NCBI RefSeq assembly: GCF_024979315.1
Contig: NZ_JANLCK010000004.1
Coordinates: 62,001-126,000 of the forward strand
DNA: 64,000 bases
Source: Herbiconiux oxytropis
Lineage (GTDB): Bacteria > Actinomycetota > Actinomycetes > Actinomycetales > Microbacteriaceae
Direction: 5' to 3'
Shown: in pieces, positions 33,412 to 39,842 of the stretch
Numbering within the stretch: position 1 is the first letter of the stretch
How the letters are laid out: each line of letters opens with the position of its first letter
Notes under the pieces: generated by a model
Databases searched by the model: none
What the model was told of the DNA's origin: nothing
Seen by the model: the letters and a program-made list of their open reading frames with translations, nothing else
Translations under genes and position numbers: made by a program

Positions 33412-35399
33412 CAGAGCTGACCCGCTGTGGTCACCTGCTGGTGCGACGCGACGCTCGCCACGATCCGCTCGACGGCCTCGTCGACCGCCACCCCGTTCTC
33501 CTGCGAGCCGTCACGGAAGCGGAAGCTCACCGAGCCCGCCGCCGTGTCGTCGGAGCCCGCGATGAGGAGCACAGGCACCTTGTTCTTGGTGTGGGTGCGG
33601 ATCTTCTTCTGCATGCGTTCGGAGGTGTCGTCGAGCTCGGCACGGATGCCGCGCTTCTTCAGCCGGCGCACGATCTCGGCGAGGTAGTCGGCGTGGTCGT
33701 CGGCGATCGGGATGGCGACGACCTGCGTGGGCGCGAGCCACACCGGGAACGCACCTGCGTAGTGCTCGAGCAGGATGGCGAAGAAGCGCTCGATCGAGCC
33801 CAGCAGCGCGCGGTGGATCATGACGGGCTGCTGCTTCGTGCCATCCGGAGCCGTGTATTCGAGCTCGAACAGCTCCGGCTGGTTGAAGTCGAGCTGCACG
33901 GTCGAGAGCTGCCAGGTGCGGCCGATCGCGTCGCGCGCCTGCACGGAGATCTTCGGGCCGTAGAAAGCGGCTCCCCCGGGGTCGGGGACGAGCTCGAGAC
34001 CGGAGTCGACCGCCACCTGGCGGAGGGTCTCGGTCGCCTCGTCCCACAGTTCGTCGGCACCCACGTACTTCTCGGGGTCCTTCGTCGAGAGCTCGAGGTA
34101 GAAGTCGTCGAGACCGTAGCCGCGGAGCGTTTCCAGCACGAAGTCGAGCTGCCGCGCCAGCTCGTCCTTCACCTGGTCGGGGGTCACGTAGATGTGCGCA
34201 TCGTCCTGCGTGAGGCCGCGCACGCGGGTGAGGCCCGACAGGGTGCCGCTCTTCTCGTAGCGGTAGACGGTGCCGAACTCCGCGAGGCGCAGCGGCAGCT
34301 CGCGGTAGCTGCGCCCGCGGGCACGGAAGATCAGGTTGTGCATCGGGCAGTTCATGGGCTTCAGGTAGTAGTCCTGGCCCTGCCTCGTGATGTTGCCCTC
34401 GGCGTCGGTCTCCTCGTCGAGGTGCATGGGCGGGAACATGCCGTCCTTGTACCAGGTGAGGTGCTGGCTGGTCTCGAAGAGGTTCTTCTTCGTGATGTGC
34501 GGGGTGTTCACGAGCTCGTACTCGTGCGCGATGAGTTGGCGGCGCAGGTAGTCCTCGATCTCAGAGCGGATGATGCCGCCCTTCGGGTGGAAGACCGCGA
34601 GGCCCGACCCGATCTCATCCGGGAACGAGAACAGGTCGAGCTCGCTGCCCAGCTTGCGGTGGTCGCGCTTGGCCGCCTCCTCGAGCCGGGACTGGTAGGC
34701 GCGCAGCTCGTCTTTCGTGGGCCAGGCGGTGCCGTAGACCCGCTGCAGCTGCTTGTTCTTCTCCGAACCGCGCCAGTAGGCGGCGGCGAGGCGGGTGAGG
34801 GCGAAGCCGTTGCCGATCTGGCGGGTGGAGGGCAGGTGCGGGCCGCGGCAGAGATCTTTCCAGACGGTCTCGCCGGTCTTCGGGTCGACGTTGTCGTAGA
34901 TCGTGAGTTCGGCGCCGCCGACCTCGACCGACTCGTTGTCGCCGCCCAGGGCGTCGTCACCGTCGGCGGCCGCGGATCCGCCCTTGAGGCCGATGAGCTC
35001 GAGCTTGTAGGGCTCGTCGGCGAGCTCGGCGCGTGCCTCGTCTTCGGTGACGACTCGGCGCACGAACCGCTGGCCGGCGCGCACGATGCGCTCCATGGCC
35101 TTCTCGATGGCCTTGAGGTCTTCGGGCGTGAAGGGAACGGCCACATCGAAGTCGTAGTAGAAGCCGTCGGTCACGGGCGGGCCGATCCCGAGCCTGGCCT
35201 CCGGGTTGATCGACTGCACGGCCTGCGCCGCCACGTGGGCGGCGGAGTGGCGCAGGATGGCGAGCCCGTCGGGGCTCGAGATCTCGACGGCCTCGACGGT
35301 GTCGTCGTCGGTCACCGTCGTCGCGAGGTCCTTCAGTTCGCCGTTGACCCGCATGGCCACGACGGCCCGGTCGGTGAAGAGATCGAATCCTGTTGCCAC
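33411..35399 (-). CDS. thrS: Threonyl-tRNA synthetase
   Basis: ThrRS charges tRNA-Thr. The 662-residue protein has an N-terminal TGS-like region ([14 protein letters not shown]), the editing-domain [12 protein letters not shown], the class II core with [47 protein letters not shown] and [29 protein letters not shown], and an anticodon-binding domain. I used GTG 35399, which has AGGAG upstream; an ATG 39 bases further upstream has no such signal. It is followed by the coupled HIT gene. Confidence 0.95.
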
Positions 35400-35994: not shown

Positions 35995-36024
35995 AAAAAG
36001 GCCCCCAAGCATTCTCGGGGGCCT
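35995..36024 (-). terminator. Terminator of the tRNA-Gly-Cys-Val operon
   Basis: On the minus strand AGGCCCCC (36024-36017) pairs with GGGGGCCT (36006-35999), loop GAGAATGCTT, followed by TTTTT (35999-35995). A repeat of GGGGGCCTAT lies at 36031-36040. It stands 24 bases after the tRNA-Val end. Confidence 0.85.
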
Positions 36025-36047
36025 ATCTCTGGGGGCCTATTTCTTTG

Positions 36048-36119
36048 TGGGCGATACTGGGATCGAACCAGTGACCTCTTCCGTGTCAGGGAAGCGCGCT
36101 ACCGCTGCGCCAATCGCCC
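36048..36119 (-). tRNA. tRNA-Val (GAC)
   Basis: A 72-nt cloverleaf starting GGGCGATTGGCGCAGCGG and ending ATCGCCC plus discriminator A. The anticodon stem CTTCC/GGAAG frames the loop CTGACAC, anticodon GAC. The T-arm has GGTTCGATCC. CCA is not encoded. It is the last of three tandem tRNAs. Confidence 0.96.
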
Positions 36120-36145
36120 AAAGGTGGTGCTTCTGAGAGACCGAG

Positions 36146-36219
36146 TGGAGGTGGCGACGGGATTTGAACCCGTGTGGACGGCTTTGCAGGCCGCTGCCTC
36201 GCCTCTCGGCCACGCCACC
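36146..36219 (-). tRNA. tRNA-Cys (GCA)
   Basis: Starts GGTGGCGTGGCCGAGAGG; anticodon stem GCGGC/GCCGT with loop CTGCAAA, anticodon GCA. Acceptor GGTGGCG pairs with CGCCACC, discriminator T as expected for tRNA-Cys, followed by CCA encoded at 36148-36146. The T-arm is GGGTTCAAATCCC. Confidence 0.95.
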
Positions 36220-36255
36220 GAATGTGGATTTCCCACAGACGAGTAACTTCACTCG

Positions 36256-36327
36256 AGCGGATGACGAGATTCGAACTCGCGACCCCAACCTTGGCAAGGT
36301 TGTGCGCTACCACTGCGCCACATCCGC
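36256..36327 (-). tRNA. tRNA-Gly (GCC)
   Basis: Starts GCGGATGTGGCGCAGTGG; anticodon stem CAACC/GGTTG with loop TTGCCAA, anticodon GCC. Acceptor GCGGAT pairs with ATCCGC, discriminator T. CCA is not encoded. First gene of the minus-strand tRNA operon. Confidence 0.96.
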
Positions 36328-36358
36328 ATTTCCACCCGCATTTCTGCGTGCGGATTAG

Positions 36359-36388
36359 ACATTAGCCGACTCCTCGGGAGATTGCCAA
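36359..36388 (-). promoter_or_regulatory. Promoter of the tRNA-Gly-Cys-Val operon
   Basis: On the minus strand TTGGCA (-35, 36388-36383) and TAATGT (-10, 36364-36359) are separated by 18 bp and lie about 30 bases ahead of the tRNA-Gly 5' end. Confidence 0.6.
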
Positions 36389-36423
36389 ATCGCCGCCGGC
36401 ACCGCGTGTCGTATCCCGCGGCG

Positions 36424-36454
36424 TTCACGAGCACCCCTCCGCATCCGCTACTAT
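36424..36454 (+). promoter_or_regulatory. Likely promoter of tRNA-Val(CAC) and the acyltransferase unit
   Basis: TACTAT at 36449-36454 is a good -10; TTCACG at 36424-36429 is a poor -35 with a 19-bp spacer. The tRNA begins 14 bases after the -10. No other promoter is visible between the tRNA and the acyltransferase ATG, which is one base away. Confidence 0.45.
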
Positions 36455-36468
36455 CGGTAACTGCCCCC

Positions 36469-36544
36469 GGGCGATTGGCGCAGTTGGTAGCGCGCTTCCT
36501 TCACACGGAAGAGGTCATCGGTTCGAGTCCGGTATCGCCCACCA
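36469..36544 (+). tRNA. tRNA-Val (CAC)
   Basis: Starts GGGCGATTGGCGCAGTTGG; anticodon stem CTTCC/GGAAG frames the loop TTCACAC, anticodon CAC. Acceptor GGGCGAT pairs with ATCGCCC, discriminator A, CCA encoded at 36542-36544. It differs from the nearby tRNA-Val(GAC) mainly in anticodon loop and D-loop. The next gene's ATG begins two bases after the CCA ends. Confidence 0.96.
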
Positions 36545-36545
36545 G

Positions 36546-37709
36546 ATGGTCGTTCAGAGCAAGATCCCCTCGCTGGACGGCCTCCGAGCCGCCTCGATCG
36601 TGATCGTCCTGATCGGGCACGGTCAGACTCTGGGTGATCCGTGGCCCGGTCACGTGGGCGTGACGGTGTTCTTCTTCCTCAGCGGATTCCTCATCACGAC
36701 GCTCCTGCGACGGGAGTACGAGGCCAACCAGCGCATCTCGCTCGGCCGCTTCTACCTCAGACGGGCCCTCCGCATCCTGCCACCCGCCTGGATCGCGATC
36801 ACCCTGTGCGTCATCGTGGGCGCCGCGGGCATCCTGCCCTCGACGATGAACATCTGGGGCACCCTCTCGGAGTACCTCAACTACACGAACTACTACCTGG
36901 TCTACGCCGACCAGGTGCACGGCGAGCGGACCTTCGGGCTGCCTCCGGAATCCACGCAGCTGTGGTCGCTCGCGGTCGAAGAGCACTTCTATCTCGTGTT
37001 CCCGCTCCTGCTCATCGTGCTCACCGCTCTGCGGATCCGGATGCGCACGATCGGCTGGGCGCTGCTGGCCGCGGGCGGGGCCGTGCTCGTCTGGCGCCTC
37101 GTGCTCTCGCTCGAGGGAGCGGGGTTCTACCGGCTCTACGTGAGCACCGACACGAAGTTCGACGGGCTCGTGATCGGAGCGGCGATGGCGCTCCTGTTCA
37201 ACCCGGCGCTCGGCGACCGTCCGCCGTTCGGCATCCCCGAGTGGATCGTGAACCGGGTGCTGGCGCCGGTGGGCGTCGTGGTCTTCGTGATCGCGGCCAT
37301 CTCGCCGGAGGCTCCTCGGCTCGCCGTCGCCGACTCGGCCATCTGCCTCGCGCTCATCCCGGTGTTCTGGTTCGTCATCACCCGGCCCACGAGCGTGGCC
37401 GGGCGCGTGCTCAACCACAGGTGGGTCGCCCATCTGGGCGTGCTCTCCTTCTCCGTCTACCTGCTGCACCGGCTCGTGCTCGGGCTCGTGCAGCTCGCGG
37501 GACTCGAGCCGTGGCTGTCCGACCTCAGCGCCTACCTGCTCGTCCTCATCCCGGCGCAGCTGATGTTCCTCCTGGTGGAGCGGCCGCTCGGTCGCGTGCG
37601 CCGCGACTTCGAGGCGCGACTGCGGCCATCAGGGTGCGTCTCGCCGGCGGGGGTCCGGGGCGAGGCTACCGTGGAGAGCATGTCGGCGACCGTGAGGGCT
37701 CATGAGTGA
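36546..37709 (+). CDS. Membrane acyltransferase (acyltransferase-3 family)
   Basis: The 387-residue integral membrane protein begins MVVQSKIPSLDGLRAASIVI, with IPSLDGLRA and GHGQTLG, the signature of acyltransferase-3 enzymes with a catalytic His in the first helix, plus FFFLSGFLITTLLRREYE and YLRRALRILPPAW. About ten membrane helices follow, with WSLAVEEHFYLVFPLLL as the second signature. These enzymes O-acylate extracytoplasmic sugars. Its ATG has no Shine-Dalgarno and lies one base after the CCA of tRNA-Val(CAC). It ends overlapping the SGNH-like gene by 8 bases, suggesting they act together. Confidence 0.88.
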   Translation: MVVQSKIPSLDGLRAASIVIVLIGHGQTLGDPWPGHVGVTVFFFLSGFLITTLLRREYEANQRISLGRFYLRRALRILPPAWIAITLCVIVGAAGILPSTMNIWGTLSEYLNYTNYYLVYADQVHGERTFGLPPESTQLWSLAVEEHFYLVFPLLLIVLTALRIRMRTIGWALLAAGGAVLVWRLVLSLEGAGFYRLYVSTDTKFDGLVIGAAMALLFNPALGDRPPFGIPEWIVNRVLAPVGVVVFVIAAISPEAPRLAVADSAICLALIPVFWFVITRPTSVAGRVLNHRWVAHLGVLSFSVYLLHRLVLGLVQLAGLEPWLSDLSAYLLVLIPAQLMFLLVERPLGRVRRDFEARLRPSGCVSPAGVRGEATVESMSATVRAHE

Positions 37710-38895
37710 ACTGGACCGGCTCCTTCTGCTGCGCAGAAGGCGCCGGTGGCCCCTCGTGGTCGCGGTGAGCCTGCTGTGCGCCGGAATCATCGTGGGAACG
37801 GGCGCCGGTCTGATCGCCGTGCAGCAGCTGCAGGAGCAGGTGGCCGGACTCGAGGCGGAGCTCGCGACGTCGCGGTTGCAGGATGCTGCGGCGGAATCGG
37901 GCGAGACGGCCGGGCCGGGAACCCTCGCTCCGGCACTGGATCCCGAGCAGGTGGTGGTGGAGGAGACCGACGGTGTCACCTCCTTCACCGATCTCTCCAC
38001 CGGCCTCCGCACGGTGGTGCAGCCCGTCGACCGCTCGAAGCTCACGATCGTGGGCTCGTCGACCATGCGGGAGATGGCCGGCGACTTCGGGGAGTTCGCC
38101 GACCGGCACGACGCCGCGCTGATCGATGCCACCGGCGGCGGCCTGCTGGCCGAGCACATGCTCGCCGAACTCGGCTCCCGCCGACTCGTGACCGACGCCG
38201 TCGACATCCCCGCCTCGGGGCAGACGACCCTGACCTCGCCGAACGTTCCGGCCGGCATCCAGGGTGCGTTCCGCCTGAGCGGGCACTTCGAAGGCTACGG
38301 ATCGGCGGCCGGCACGATCTCGAAGACCGAGGGCCCCGCGACCGTGTGGACCTTCGAGCGGGACGAGGACGGGCTGGCCGTCCGCATCCCGGCGGGCACG
38401 GAGTTCGTGCCCGACCTCGGCACCCAGGGCCGCGACGGGATCGCCGTGCTCAACATCGGCAAGAACAACCTCGCCGCGAGCGACGGGGTGGGCGCTTCCG
38501 ACGTGGACGAGCTGGTCTCCTGGACCGAGGACGCCTACAGATACCTTTCGGCCACGGGCAAGTACGTGCTCGTGGTGGGCCACTTCCAGAACTCCGCGAC
38601 GGCCGCCGACTCCCCCGCCCGGGCCCGCATCCAGCAGTACAACGACGCCCTGCGTGACAGGTTCGGCCCGCGCTTCTTCGACCTCGAGGCGGTCGTGACC
38701 TCCGACGACATCTGGAAGGCCACCGGCATCGCTCCCACCGCGGCCGACCTGGCCGAGCAGCGCGCAGGCAACAAGCCGGACGGTCTCTCGCGGCGGGTCG
38801 ACGGCGCCGTCGATCCCTACCACCTCGACCCTGCGGTGGCGAGCACGATCGCGGGGCTCATGCAGTCGCGCATGATCGATCTCGGCTGGTACTGA
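37702..38895 (+). CDS. Membrane-anchored SGNH-hydrolase-like protein
   Basis: The 397-residue protein has an N-terminal membrane helix (about residues 16-38, WPLVVAVSLLCAGIIVGTGAGLIAV) after an Arg-rich start, a short coiled region, and an extracytoplasmic domain whose motif order resembles SGNH hydrolases: LTIVGSSTMREMAG (block I with Ser), GTQGRDGIAVLNIGKNNLA (GxN block), YVLVVGHFQ and a terminal DPYHLDPAVAS (Asp and His). It has GAGGG before ATG 37702 and overlaps the acyltransferase. Acyltransferase-3 and SGNH domains are fused in known O-acetyltransferases such as OafB; here they are separate. SGNH assignment is by motif order only. Confidence 0.6.
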   Translation: MSELDRLLLLRRRRRWPLVVAVSLLCAGIIVGTGAGLIAVQQLQEQVAGLEAELATSRLQDAAAESGETAGPGTLAPALDPEQVVVEETDGVTSFTDLSTGLRTVVQPVDRSKLTIVGSSTMREMAGDFGEFADRHDAALIDATGGGLLAEHMLAELGSRRLVTDAVDIPASGQTTLTSPNVPAGIQGAFRLSGHFEGYGSAAGTISKTEGPATVWTFERDEDGLAVRIPAGTEFVPDLGTQGRDGIAVLNIGKNNLAASDGVGASDVDELVSWTEDAYRYLSATGKYVLVVGHFQNSATAADSPARARIQQYNDALRDRFGPRFFDLEAVVTSDDIWKATGIAPTAADLAEQRAGNKPDGLSRRVDGAVDPYHLDPAVASTIAGLMQSRMIDLGWY

Positions 38896-38921
38896 AGCGG
38901 CACGAGCAGAGCCGACCGGGC

Positions 38922-38927
38922 TACCGT
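38922..38927 (+). promoter_or_regulatory. -10 box for leaderless small ORF and EI24 gene
   Basis: TACCGT at 38922-38927 is followed by 7 bases and then ATG at 38935, the spacing at which transcription would begin on the start codon itself. Confidence 0.45.
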
Positions 38928-38934
38928 GGTGCCC

Positions 38935-39063
38935 ATGCCACCGACGCACCGACCAGAGCCCTTCGCCCCCGGACTGAGAGCGGCGAGGTTCATCCCGCCG
39001 GTGTCGGTTCACACGGAGTGGATCCGTGTCGTCGGCGCCGCCCTCGAGGAGCACGCGTCATGA
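38935..39063 (+). CDS. 42-codon ORF coupled to the EI24-like gene
   Basis: ATG 38935 to TGA 39063 encodes 42 residues (MPPTHRPEPFAPGLRAARF ... RVVGAALEEHAS) with no membrane segment, and its stop overlaps the next ATG as ATGA. A -10-like TACCGT sits 7 bases before the ATG, so a leaderless message would begin at it. GC bias at third positions is weaker than in neighbours, and I recognise no family. It may be a leader peptide that couples translation to the EI24-like gene, or a chance ORF. Confidence 0.4.
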   Translation: MPPTHRPEPFAPGLRAARFIPPVSVHTEWIRVVGAALEEHAS

Positions 39064-39842
39064 GCGCCTCGCCCGTGCGTGAGCTGTTCGGCGGCGCGGG
39101 GCTGCTCGGGCGGGGGCTCGGCACCTGGGCGCGTGCGCCACGGCTCATGCTGCTTGGCGCTGTTCCCGCCCTGATCGTGGCCGGCGTCTACACGGTGGGC
39201 CTCGTGGTGCTCGCCATCAACGCCCCCGCCATCGCAGACTGGGCCACACCCTTCGCCGACGAGTGGGACGAACCGTGGCGCTCGACCGTGCGCGTCTCCG
39301 CCGCCCTCGCGCTCGTGGCGGCCGGAGTGCTGCTCGTGGTGTTCACCTTCACAGCCATCACCCTCGCAGTGGGAGACGCCTTCTACGAGCGGATCTGGCG
39401 CGACACCGAGGAGCGCCTGGGCGACGCCCCGGCCGACCCGCAGGCCGGCTTCTGGCGGCTGCTCTGGCGGGGCCTCGTGAACGCTCTGCGGCTCGTGGCG
39501 CTCAGCATCGGCATCGGCCTCGGGCTCTTCGTGGTCGGGCTGCTGCCCGTCGTCGGCACCGTCGCGGCCGCCGTGCTCGGCGCGTTCTTCGGCGGCTGGG
39601 TGCTCGCCCTCGAGCTCACGGGCTTCGCATTCGACGCCCGCGGACACGCCCTCCGCGACCGGCGCCGGATGCTCGGGGTGCGCCGGGCGCGCACGATCGG
39701 GTTCGGCGCCGCCGTCTACCTGCTGTTCCTGCTCCCCCTCGGTGCTGTCTTCGTGATGCCGGCCGCCGTCGTGGGAGCGACCATGCTCGCACGCGATGCG
39801 CTCACGGGGAACGCCGAAGCGGGGCGCCACCCTGAAGGATGA
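39060..39842 (+). CDS. EI24 domain-containing membrane protein
   Basis: The 260-residue protein shows the EI24/CysZ-like layout: N-terminal FGGAGLLGRGLGTWARAPRLMLLGAVPAL, a membrane helix near residues 28-50, further helices at about 80-105 (ALALVAAGVLLVVFTFTAITLAV), 140-165 (RLVALSIGIGLGLFVVGLLPVVG) with following AAAVLGAFFGGWVLALEL, and near 220-245. GDAFYERIWRDTEERLGD is the soluble loop. The start ATG 39060 has GAGGAG upstream and overlaps the small ORF. Family relatives include the sulfate transporter CysZ; transport of sulfate is not shown here. Confidence 0.75.
   Translation: MSASPVRELFGGAGLLGRGLGTWARAPRLMLLGAVPALIVAGVYTVGLVVLAINAPAIADWATPFADEWDEPWRSTVRVSAALALVAAGVLLVVFTFTAITLAVGDAFYERIWRDTEERLGDAPADPQAGFWRLLWRGLVNALRLVALSIGIGLGLFVVGLLPVVGTVAAAVLGAFFGGWVLALELTGFAFDARGHALRDRRRMLGVRRARTIGFGAAVYLLFLLPLGAVFVMPAAVVGATMLARDALTGNAEAGRHPEG

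Follow-up and report, generated by a model that had tools for sequence, protein, structure and literature searches.

An acyltransferase gene one base behind tRNA-Val(CAC) in Herbiconiux oxytropis, a candidate for tRNA punctuation in a bacterium

Introduction

How is a protein-coding gene transcribed and translated when its start codon directly follows a tRNA? The question is raised by a locus of Herbiconiux oxytropis, contained in the 64,000-nt stretch of DNA analysed here (the window), at which tRNA-Val(CAC) is followed by a gene of the acyltransferase-3 family (AT3). In animal mitochondria, mRNAs are punctuated by tRNAs, as Montoya, Ojala and Attardi reportedly described in 1981: excision of the tRNA before the start codon sets the 5' end of the mRNA and leaves leaders of zero to a few nucleotides. 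In bacteria, the E. coli tRNA-tufB operon provides a case in which tRNAs and a protein gene share a promoter and the precursor is cut. In the known cotranscripts of this kind, the protein gene keeps a leader with its own Shine-Dalgarno (SD) sequence, whereas AT3 has neither.

The arrangement studied here resembles that of animal mitochondria in that AT3 starts directly after a tRNA and leaderless initiation is proposed. It differs in lying on a bacterial chromosome, in concerning individual genes and not an entire genome, and in having an encoded CCA. The likeness extends to the actinobacterial leaderless mRNAs described in PMC4633059, PMC3848588 and PMC4681348, which have no leader or SD sequence, begin with the ATG or close to it and use the ordinary ribosome; the 5' ends of the known ones, however, are made by transcription initiation at or close to the start codon, whereas that of AT3 would come from tRNA processing. 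Among the titles and abstracts of the literature matches listed, none reports a protein gene of bacteria that begins at the 3' end of a tRNA. While tRNA punctuation itself is known, its bacterial setting thus looks new.

Results

The junction and its start codon

ARAGORN places tRNA-Val(CAC) at 36469..36544 on the forward strand, with an encoded CCA at 36542-36544. A lone spacer base, G (36545..36545, + strand), separates the CCA from the ATG of the AT3 gene (36546..37709, + strand; 387 aa), in agreement with an earlier sequence-only reading that had put this ATG one base past the CCA. The gene is identified by its profile match, its GC3 and its homologs: the protein scores 90.2 bits (E 1.7e-25) against the PF01757 (Acyl_transf_3) profile, whose gathering score is 31, and is therefore a member of the family, and the ORF is full-length and intact with a GC3 of 0.92.

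Upstream of ATG 36546, no in-frame ATG, GTG or TTG occurs back to the stop codon TAG at 36363; the first in-frame start codon downstream is GTG 36600. The motif IPSLDGLRA is present at all ten homologous loci aligned, three of which have one residue changed (the ten include L033 and L076, whose sequences are identical), and the in-frame start nearest to it lies 2 to 25 residues upstream in the homologs and 6 in the window. Because no in-frame start exists upstream and GTG 36600 would cost the protein its IPSLDGLRA, ATG 36546 is the only credible start of AT3. It had been raised as an objection that the true start might be a downstream codon; checked against the homologs, the conserved motif favours ATG 36546 instead. 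The varying N-termini of the homologs leave some room for translation starting further down or within an uncut precursor, with ATG 36546 not being the start, but the loss of a conserved motif, together with the lack of an SD sequence and of any in-frame start upstream, makes this highly improbable.

By eye, no SD sequence fits before ATG 36546. The gene has the form expected of a leaderless one, with no usable leader and with the tRNA and one G alone preceding its ATG. It also has the form expected under tRNA punctuation, in which the start adjoins or overlaps the tRNA 3' end: the offset is +1 for AT3 and −1 for a second gene of this genome, a Gfo/Idh gene treated below.

Promoter, terminator and folding signals

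Between 36400 and 36548, the sole TANNNT on the forward strand is TACTAT (36449..36454, + strand), a −10-like element beginning 20 nt upstream of tRNA-Val(CAC) and putatively belonging to the tRNA promoter. A TANNNT precedes this tRNA in all 15 congeners, by 16-20 nt in 14 of them and by 35 nt in the remaining one (L075). Primary leaderless genes have a TANNNT a few nucleotides before the start, but none begins within 36450-36548, so that AT3 falls outside the ordinary class of primary leaderless genes. The earlier claim that neither an SD sequence nor a separate promoter fits between tRNA and gene is thus borne out.

Leaderless-type promoters seem to exist in this organism, judging by the window, where TANNNT stands 5-8 nt before an early start in 4 of 47 gene-like ORFs (rough gene calls), against a background of 0.002 per start triplet. 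An SD-like motif precedes an early start in 33 of the 47. ORFs 44981, 51294, 61155, 29889 and 19799, each with a TANNNT 5-8 nt before the start, are likely ordinary leaderless genes. The presence of such promoters would suit an account in which a cryptic promoter inside the tRNA makes a primary leaderless mRNA from 36545-36546 and tRNA processing is irrelevant. The sequence TATCGC (36533-36538), 7 nt before the ATG, does have the TAT of TATAAT, yet it lacks the final T of TANNNT and is fixed by tRNA function. A sigma-70 promoter scan of 36000-39100 was negative, albeit with a consensus other than that of actinobacteria, and the Gfo/Idh junction likewise has no TANNNT inside its tRNA, the only one upstream of that gene lying before the tRNA. 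A promoter of this kind is accordingly an improbable source of the AT3 mRNA.

Our own script detected no terminator in the 90 nt that follow the tRNA-Val(CAC) body; in 8 of 15 congeners, including the nearest one (G008), the script found a hairpin with a T-rich tail after this tRNA. Five terminator-like sites were detected across 36000-39100 (0.9 in shuffles), three of them on the forward strand: two upstream of tRNA-Val(CAC), at 36012-36038, and a weak hairpin inside the AT3 gene, at 36649-36664. Over its first 40 nt, the predicted AT3 mRNA forms a hairpin of −13.7 kcal/mol starting from the G of the AUG, with 11 of 200 shuffles being equally stable. As modelled, this hairpin on the AUG should hinder initiation and counts against strong expression.

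At the congener loci L062, L063, L065 and L074, an EI24/CysZ-like gene follows tRNA-Val(CAC) at 10-60 nt; by eye it has an apparent TANNNT of its own before the ATG, and no terminator was found between tRNA and gene at these loci.

History of the fusion

All 15 congeners carry tRNA-Val(CAC), with a 100% match over the aligned 74-76 nt, but none has an AT3 match within the 7-13 kb examined around it (0/15). The comparison of this junction across relatives, which the sequence-only reading had called for, thus shows no conservation, and a conserved tRNA-Val-acyltransferase junction is rejected. Compared with G008, the window is 95% identical up to 36542, 89% identical over 37697-39008 and 96% identical from 39010; between the first two flanks, G008 has 71 nt with a terminator, in place of which 1154 nt containing the acyltransferase are found in the window. 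An assembly misjoin is unlikely, since both flanks are colinear with G008.

Homologs of AT3 occur in five congeners at 47-57% identity, and a paralog is found in the same genome. Some AT3 match, mostly distant, exists in 16 of 16 genomes of the genus; at E <= 1e-60, matches are confined to 5 of 299 family genomes, H. oxytropis itself included. No tRNA was found within ~1.5 kb of eight homologs from the congeners and the same genome. In a set of six homolog loci, three of which are among those eight, five have no tRNA nearby; at the sixth (L335), a tRNA-Arg lies on the other strand, ~0.7 kb past the 3' end of a homolog with an interrupted frame. These comparisons make the tRNA-Val(CAC)–AT3 fusion, seen in one genome, look recent and local. 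AT3 may have been inserted here, or it may have been ancestral and then lost in G008. A genomic island at tRNA-Val(CAC) gained no support within the window, which has neither a duplicated tRNA 3' end that would mark a second attachment site nor a supporting repeat; even with up to 3 mismatches allowed, the final 18 nt of the tRNA do not recur within the 64 kb.

A young junction invites the suspicion that AT3 is a recent insertion that came to abut the tRNA by accident, is hardly or not expressed and is on its way to being lost. The fusion being confined to G000 (H. oxytropis), with none in the 15 congeners, would agree with this, as would the patchy distribution of relatives in the family, the paralog of 59% identity elsewhere in the genome, the strong hairpin on the first codons, the weak terminator-like hairpin within the gene and a region in flux, which lacks ~0.8 kb that in G008 carries an esterase-like frame. 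On the other hand, the ORF is intact and full-length, with high GC3 and conserved motifs, and, as the Gfo/Idh fusion demonstrates, selection can maintain a junction of this type. We consider a silent insertion unlikely, although clearly less so than the cryptic promoter.

A second fusion at tRNA-Thr(CGT)

From the 47 Rfam tRNA matches in the genome, 46 distinct tRNAs were examined, two tRNA-Met genes that share their first 60 nt having been merged in the tRNA-end survey. An ORF of at least 100 aa starts within 3 nt of three of the 46, namely Val(CAC), Thr(CGT) and Ser-GGA. The Ser-GGA ORF was rejected, as it reads through a terminator hairpin, and a homology-backed gene at the tRNA end is found only for Val(CAC) and Thr(CGT). 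In the latter case (tRNA at G000:C23:88852-88927, junction to 88929; L192 1501-1578), the A of the CCA is at the same time the first base of the ATG of a gene for a Gfo/Idh/MocA oxidoreductase (PF01408, E 1.6e-26).

This junction recurs in one of 29 further loci of tRNA-Thr(CGT), that of G008 (the comparison did not include any G011 locus). The Gfo/Idh proteins of G000 and G008 both comprise 327 aa and are 95.4% identical, with a dN/dS of 0.094 and a dS of 0.232 (Nei-Gojobori); for comparison, the EI24 gene of the same genome pair has a dN/dS of 0.108. In nine congeners, a gap of 47-125 nt separates the tRNA from the Gfo/Idh ortholog that follows it; our script found a terminator in seven of these nine gaps, and several show, by eye, an SD-like GGAG before the Gfo/Idh ATG. 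The homolog starts ~1.2 kb from the tRNA in G005, G006 and G014, and the flank examined in G004 contains none. On the simplest reading of these alignments, the ancestor of G000 and G008 lost terminator, leader and SD sequence, and Gfo/Idh would have stayed under purifying selection. With a dN/dS of ~0.09, the case indicates that a tRNA-fused gene lacking both a leader and a visible promoter can persist under such selection, and it provides the strongest support, by way of sequence comparison, that a tRNA-welded gene can be expressed here. Folding at the start of the Gfo mRNA is not unusual (111 of 200 shuffles are as stable), but the best single-strand fold of its 120-nt Thr precursor is not the cloverleaf, a point against tRNA punctuation.

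Frequency of tRNA-fused genes

The pattern of a tRNA end plus an ATG occurs in 290 of 398 family genomes, so that an ATG near a tRNA end is evidently frequent by chance. From this survey 30 loci were taken, which do not represent a random draw, and ARAGORN confirmed a tRNA in 23. Three of these 23 have an ORF of at least 100 aa, and all three were rejected: two begin in terminator hairpins and one crosses the next tRNA. For the genus, 36 tRNA-like places were chosen by eye among the matches listed, in which G004, G008, G013 and G014 do not appear; 11 of them have an ORF of at least 100 aa and were rejected by terminator position, GC3 or a known downstream start. Within the ATG starts, T-arm pattern and listed rows that were surveyed, no other convincing gene start at a tRNA was found among the 23 family and 36 genus loci, which lend no support to a widespread class of tRNA-fused genes. 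A real gene starting at a tRNA end is, on these counts, likely rare.

One ARAGORN call within the window, a tRNA-Ser(CGA) at 35240-35319, lies inside thrS on the opposite strand and is absent from the Rfam tRNA matches; we take it as spurious.

tRNA 3' processing and the proposed route of expression

The sequence-only reading had proposed that tRNA cleavage would free a leaderless mRNA. The fact that the sole recognizable promoter is that of the tRNA, the leaderless-type starts elsewhere in the window and the existence of a second leaderless fusion, under purifying selection, speak for this core of the proposal; the exact 5' end given for the mRNA, at or one base before the ATG, is less secure. 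A cut after the CCA would leave a 1-nt leader (G-AUG), whereas cuts between the Cs, as described in PMC4681348 and PMC3848588, would leave 3 nt. According to the former, S. coelicolor cuts the majority of 12 CCA-encoding tRNAs between the Cs; according to the latter, some CCA-encoding tRNAs of P. acnes are cut between the Cs and others a few nucleotides past the tRNA. A cut between the Cs would yield CAG-AUG at AT3 and C-AUG at Gfo/Idh, and one a few nucleotides past the tRNA, as in some P. acnes tRNAs (PMC3848588), would enter the AUG of AT3. In mycobacteria, an RTG at the RNA 5' end was found to be necessary and sufficient for leaderless initiation (PMC4633059); given that necessity, a leader of 3-4 nt may lower efficiency. 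A cut after the CCA would destroy the AUG of the Thr-linked gene, and the persistence of Gfo/Idh therefore fits a cut before A76 followed by CCA repair.

In a search for the nuclease, none of 40 genomes of the genus and its relatives passed the RNase Z model TIGR02651 at its cut-off of 293 bits; as only 9 of 14 well-known control genomes pass this cut-off and the other 5 are missed, the negative result does not amount to absence of the enzyme. The best matches, at 244-246 bits, are limited to G016, G041 and G050, and H. oxytropis shows a split match of 33-34 bits.

In our judgement, AT3 is somewhat more probably than otherwise a tRNA-punctuated leaderless gene, expressed from a shared transcript through a tRNA cut and a leaderless start, and the product of a recent event. 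RNA polymerase would start at the tRNA-Val(CAC) promoter, whose −10-like element is conserved, presumably near 36461. At the tRNA end, it meets no terminator where G008 has one, and transcription would run on into AT3 and probably the next gene. Processing of the tRNA 3' end, at or inside the CCA, would then free an mRNA with 1-4 nt ahead of its AUG, and the ribosome would start on that AUG in the leaderless mode common in actinobacteria. The fusion seems to have arisen recently at a tRNA end and not to be a long-standing means of regulation, with Thr(CGT) as a second such event, common to G008. The suggestion that acyltransferase output is tied to tRNA transcription found no comparative backing, as none of the 15 congeners shares the junction; a coupling of AT3 output to tRNA supply is speculation. 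In addition to the fused tRNAs CAC and CGT, the genome contains the U34 isoacceptors TAC and TGT, and these could read the codons of the fused tRNAs by wobble. Speculatively, disturbed 3' processing of the CAC and CGT tRNAs may be tolerated given these isoacceptors.

We see an even chance for the broader proposition that tRNA punctuation operates in some actinobacteria. A gene would become welded to a tRNA once terminator and SD sequence are deleted, and a CCA-internal cut would by itself make the leaderless mRNA; A76 of the Thr tRNA would serve both the CCA and the start codon, requiring an earlier cut and CCA-adding repair, and the fused state would be under purifying selection in two species. 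If true, mitochondria-like tRNA punctuation would have arisen afresh in a bacterium, and the junctions would offer a natural in vivo assay for the position of the tRNA 3' cut in these bacteria. They would likewise test whether 1-4 extra bases at a processed end are tolerated in leaderless initiation, and show how terminator, leader and SD sequence can disappear while the gene stays functional. The Gfo/Idh junction would be the sharper test, since its start codon shares a base with the CCA.

The downstream gene and 3' flank

The next gene (37702..38895, + strand; 397 aa) likely belongs to the same operon, its start overlapping the AT3 stop (ATGAGTGA). By eye, the protein is hydrophobic over a stretch near the N-terminus and contains a GSSTM motif. 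Its match to a GDSL-lipase profile is weak and below the cut-off (E 0.051), and an SGNH-type role is a guess from the GSSTM motif. Its predicted structure, at a mean pLDDT of 39, is unusable, and sequence searches of the PDB gave nothing useful. The gene is kept in G008 at 90% identity, where AT3 is absent, with a dN/dS of 0.196 between G000 and G008. It may have its own promoter, a candidate separate −10 being TACCGT (37667..37672, + strand), which lies inside the AT3 3' end and is proposed from the sequence and a repeat (D16).

Within 37664-37709, TACCGT is followed after 7 nt by ATG 37680, which could open a leaderless mini-ORF in the AT3 frame, MSATVRAHE, whose end would coincide with the start codon of the 37702 gene. 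Through this segment, AT3 runs past most of its homologs. Further downstream, at 39009/39010, ~0.8 kb of G008 (L061) is missing in the window. The frame found there in G008 looks esterase-like by its HGGG motif, and 38919-39008 may be a remnant of that esterase-like segment.
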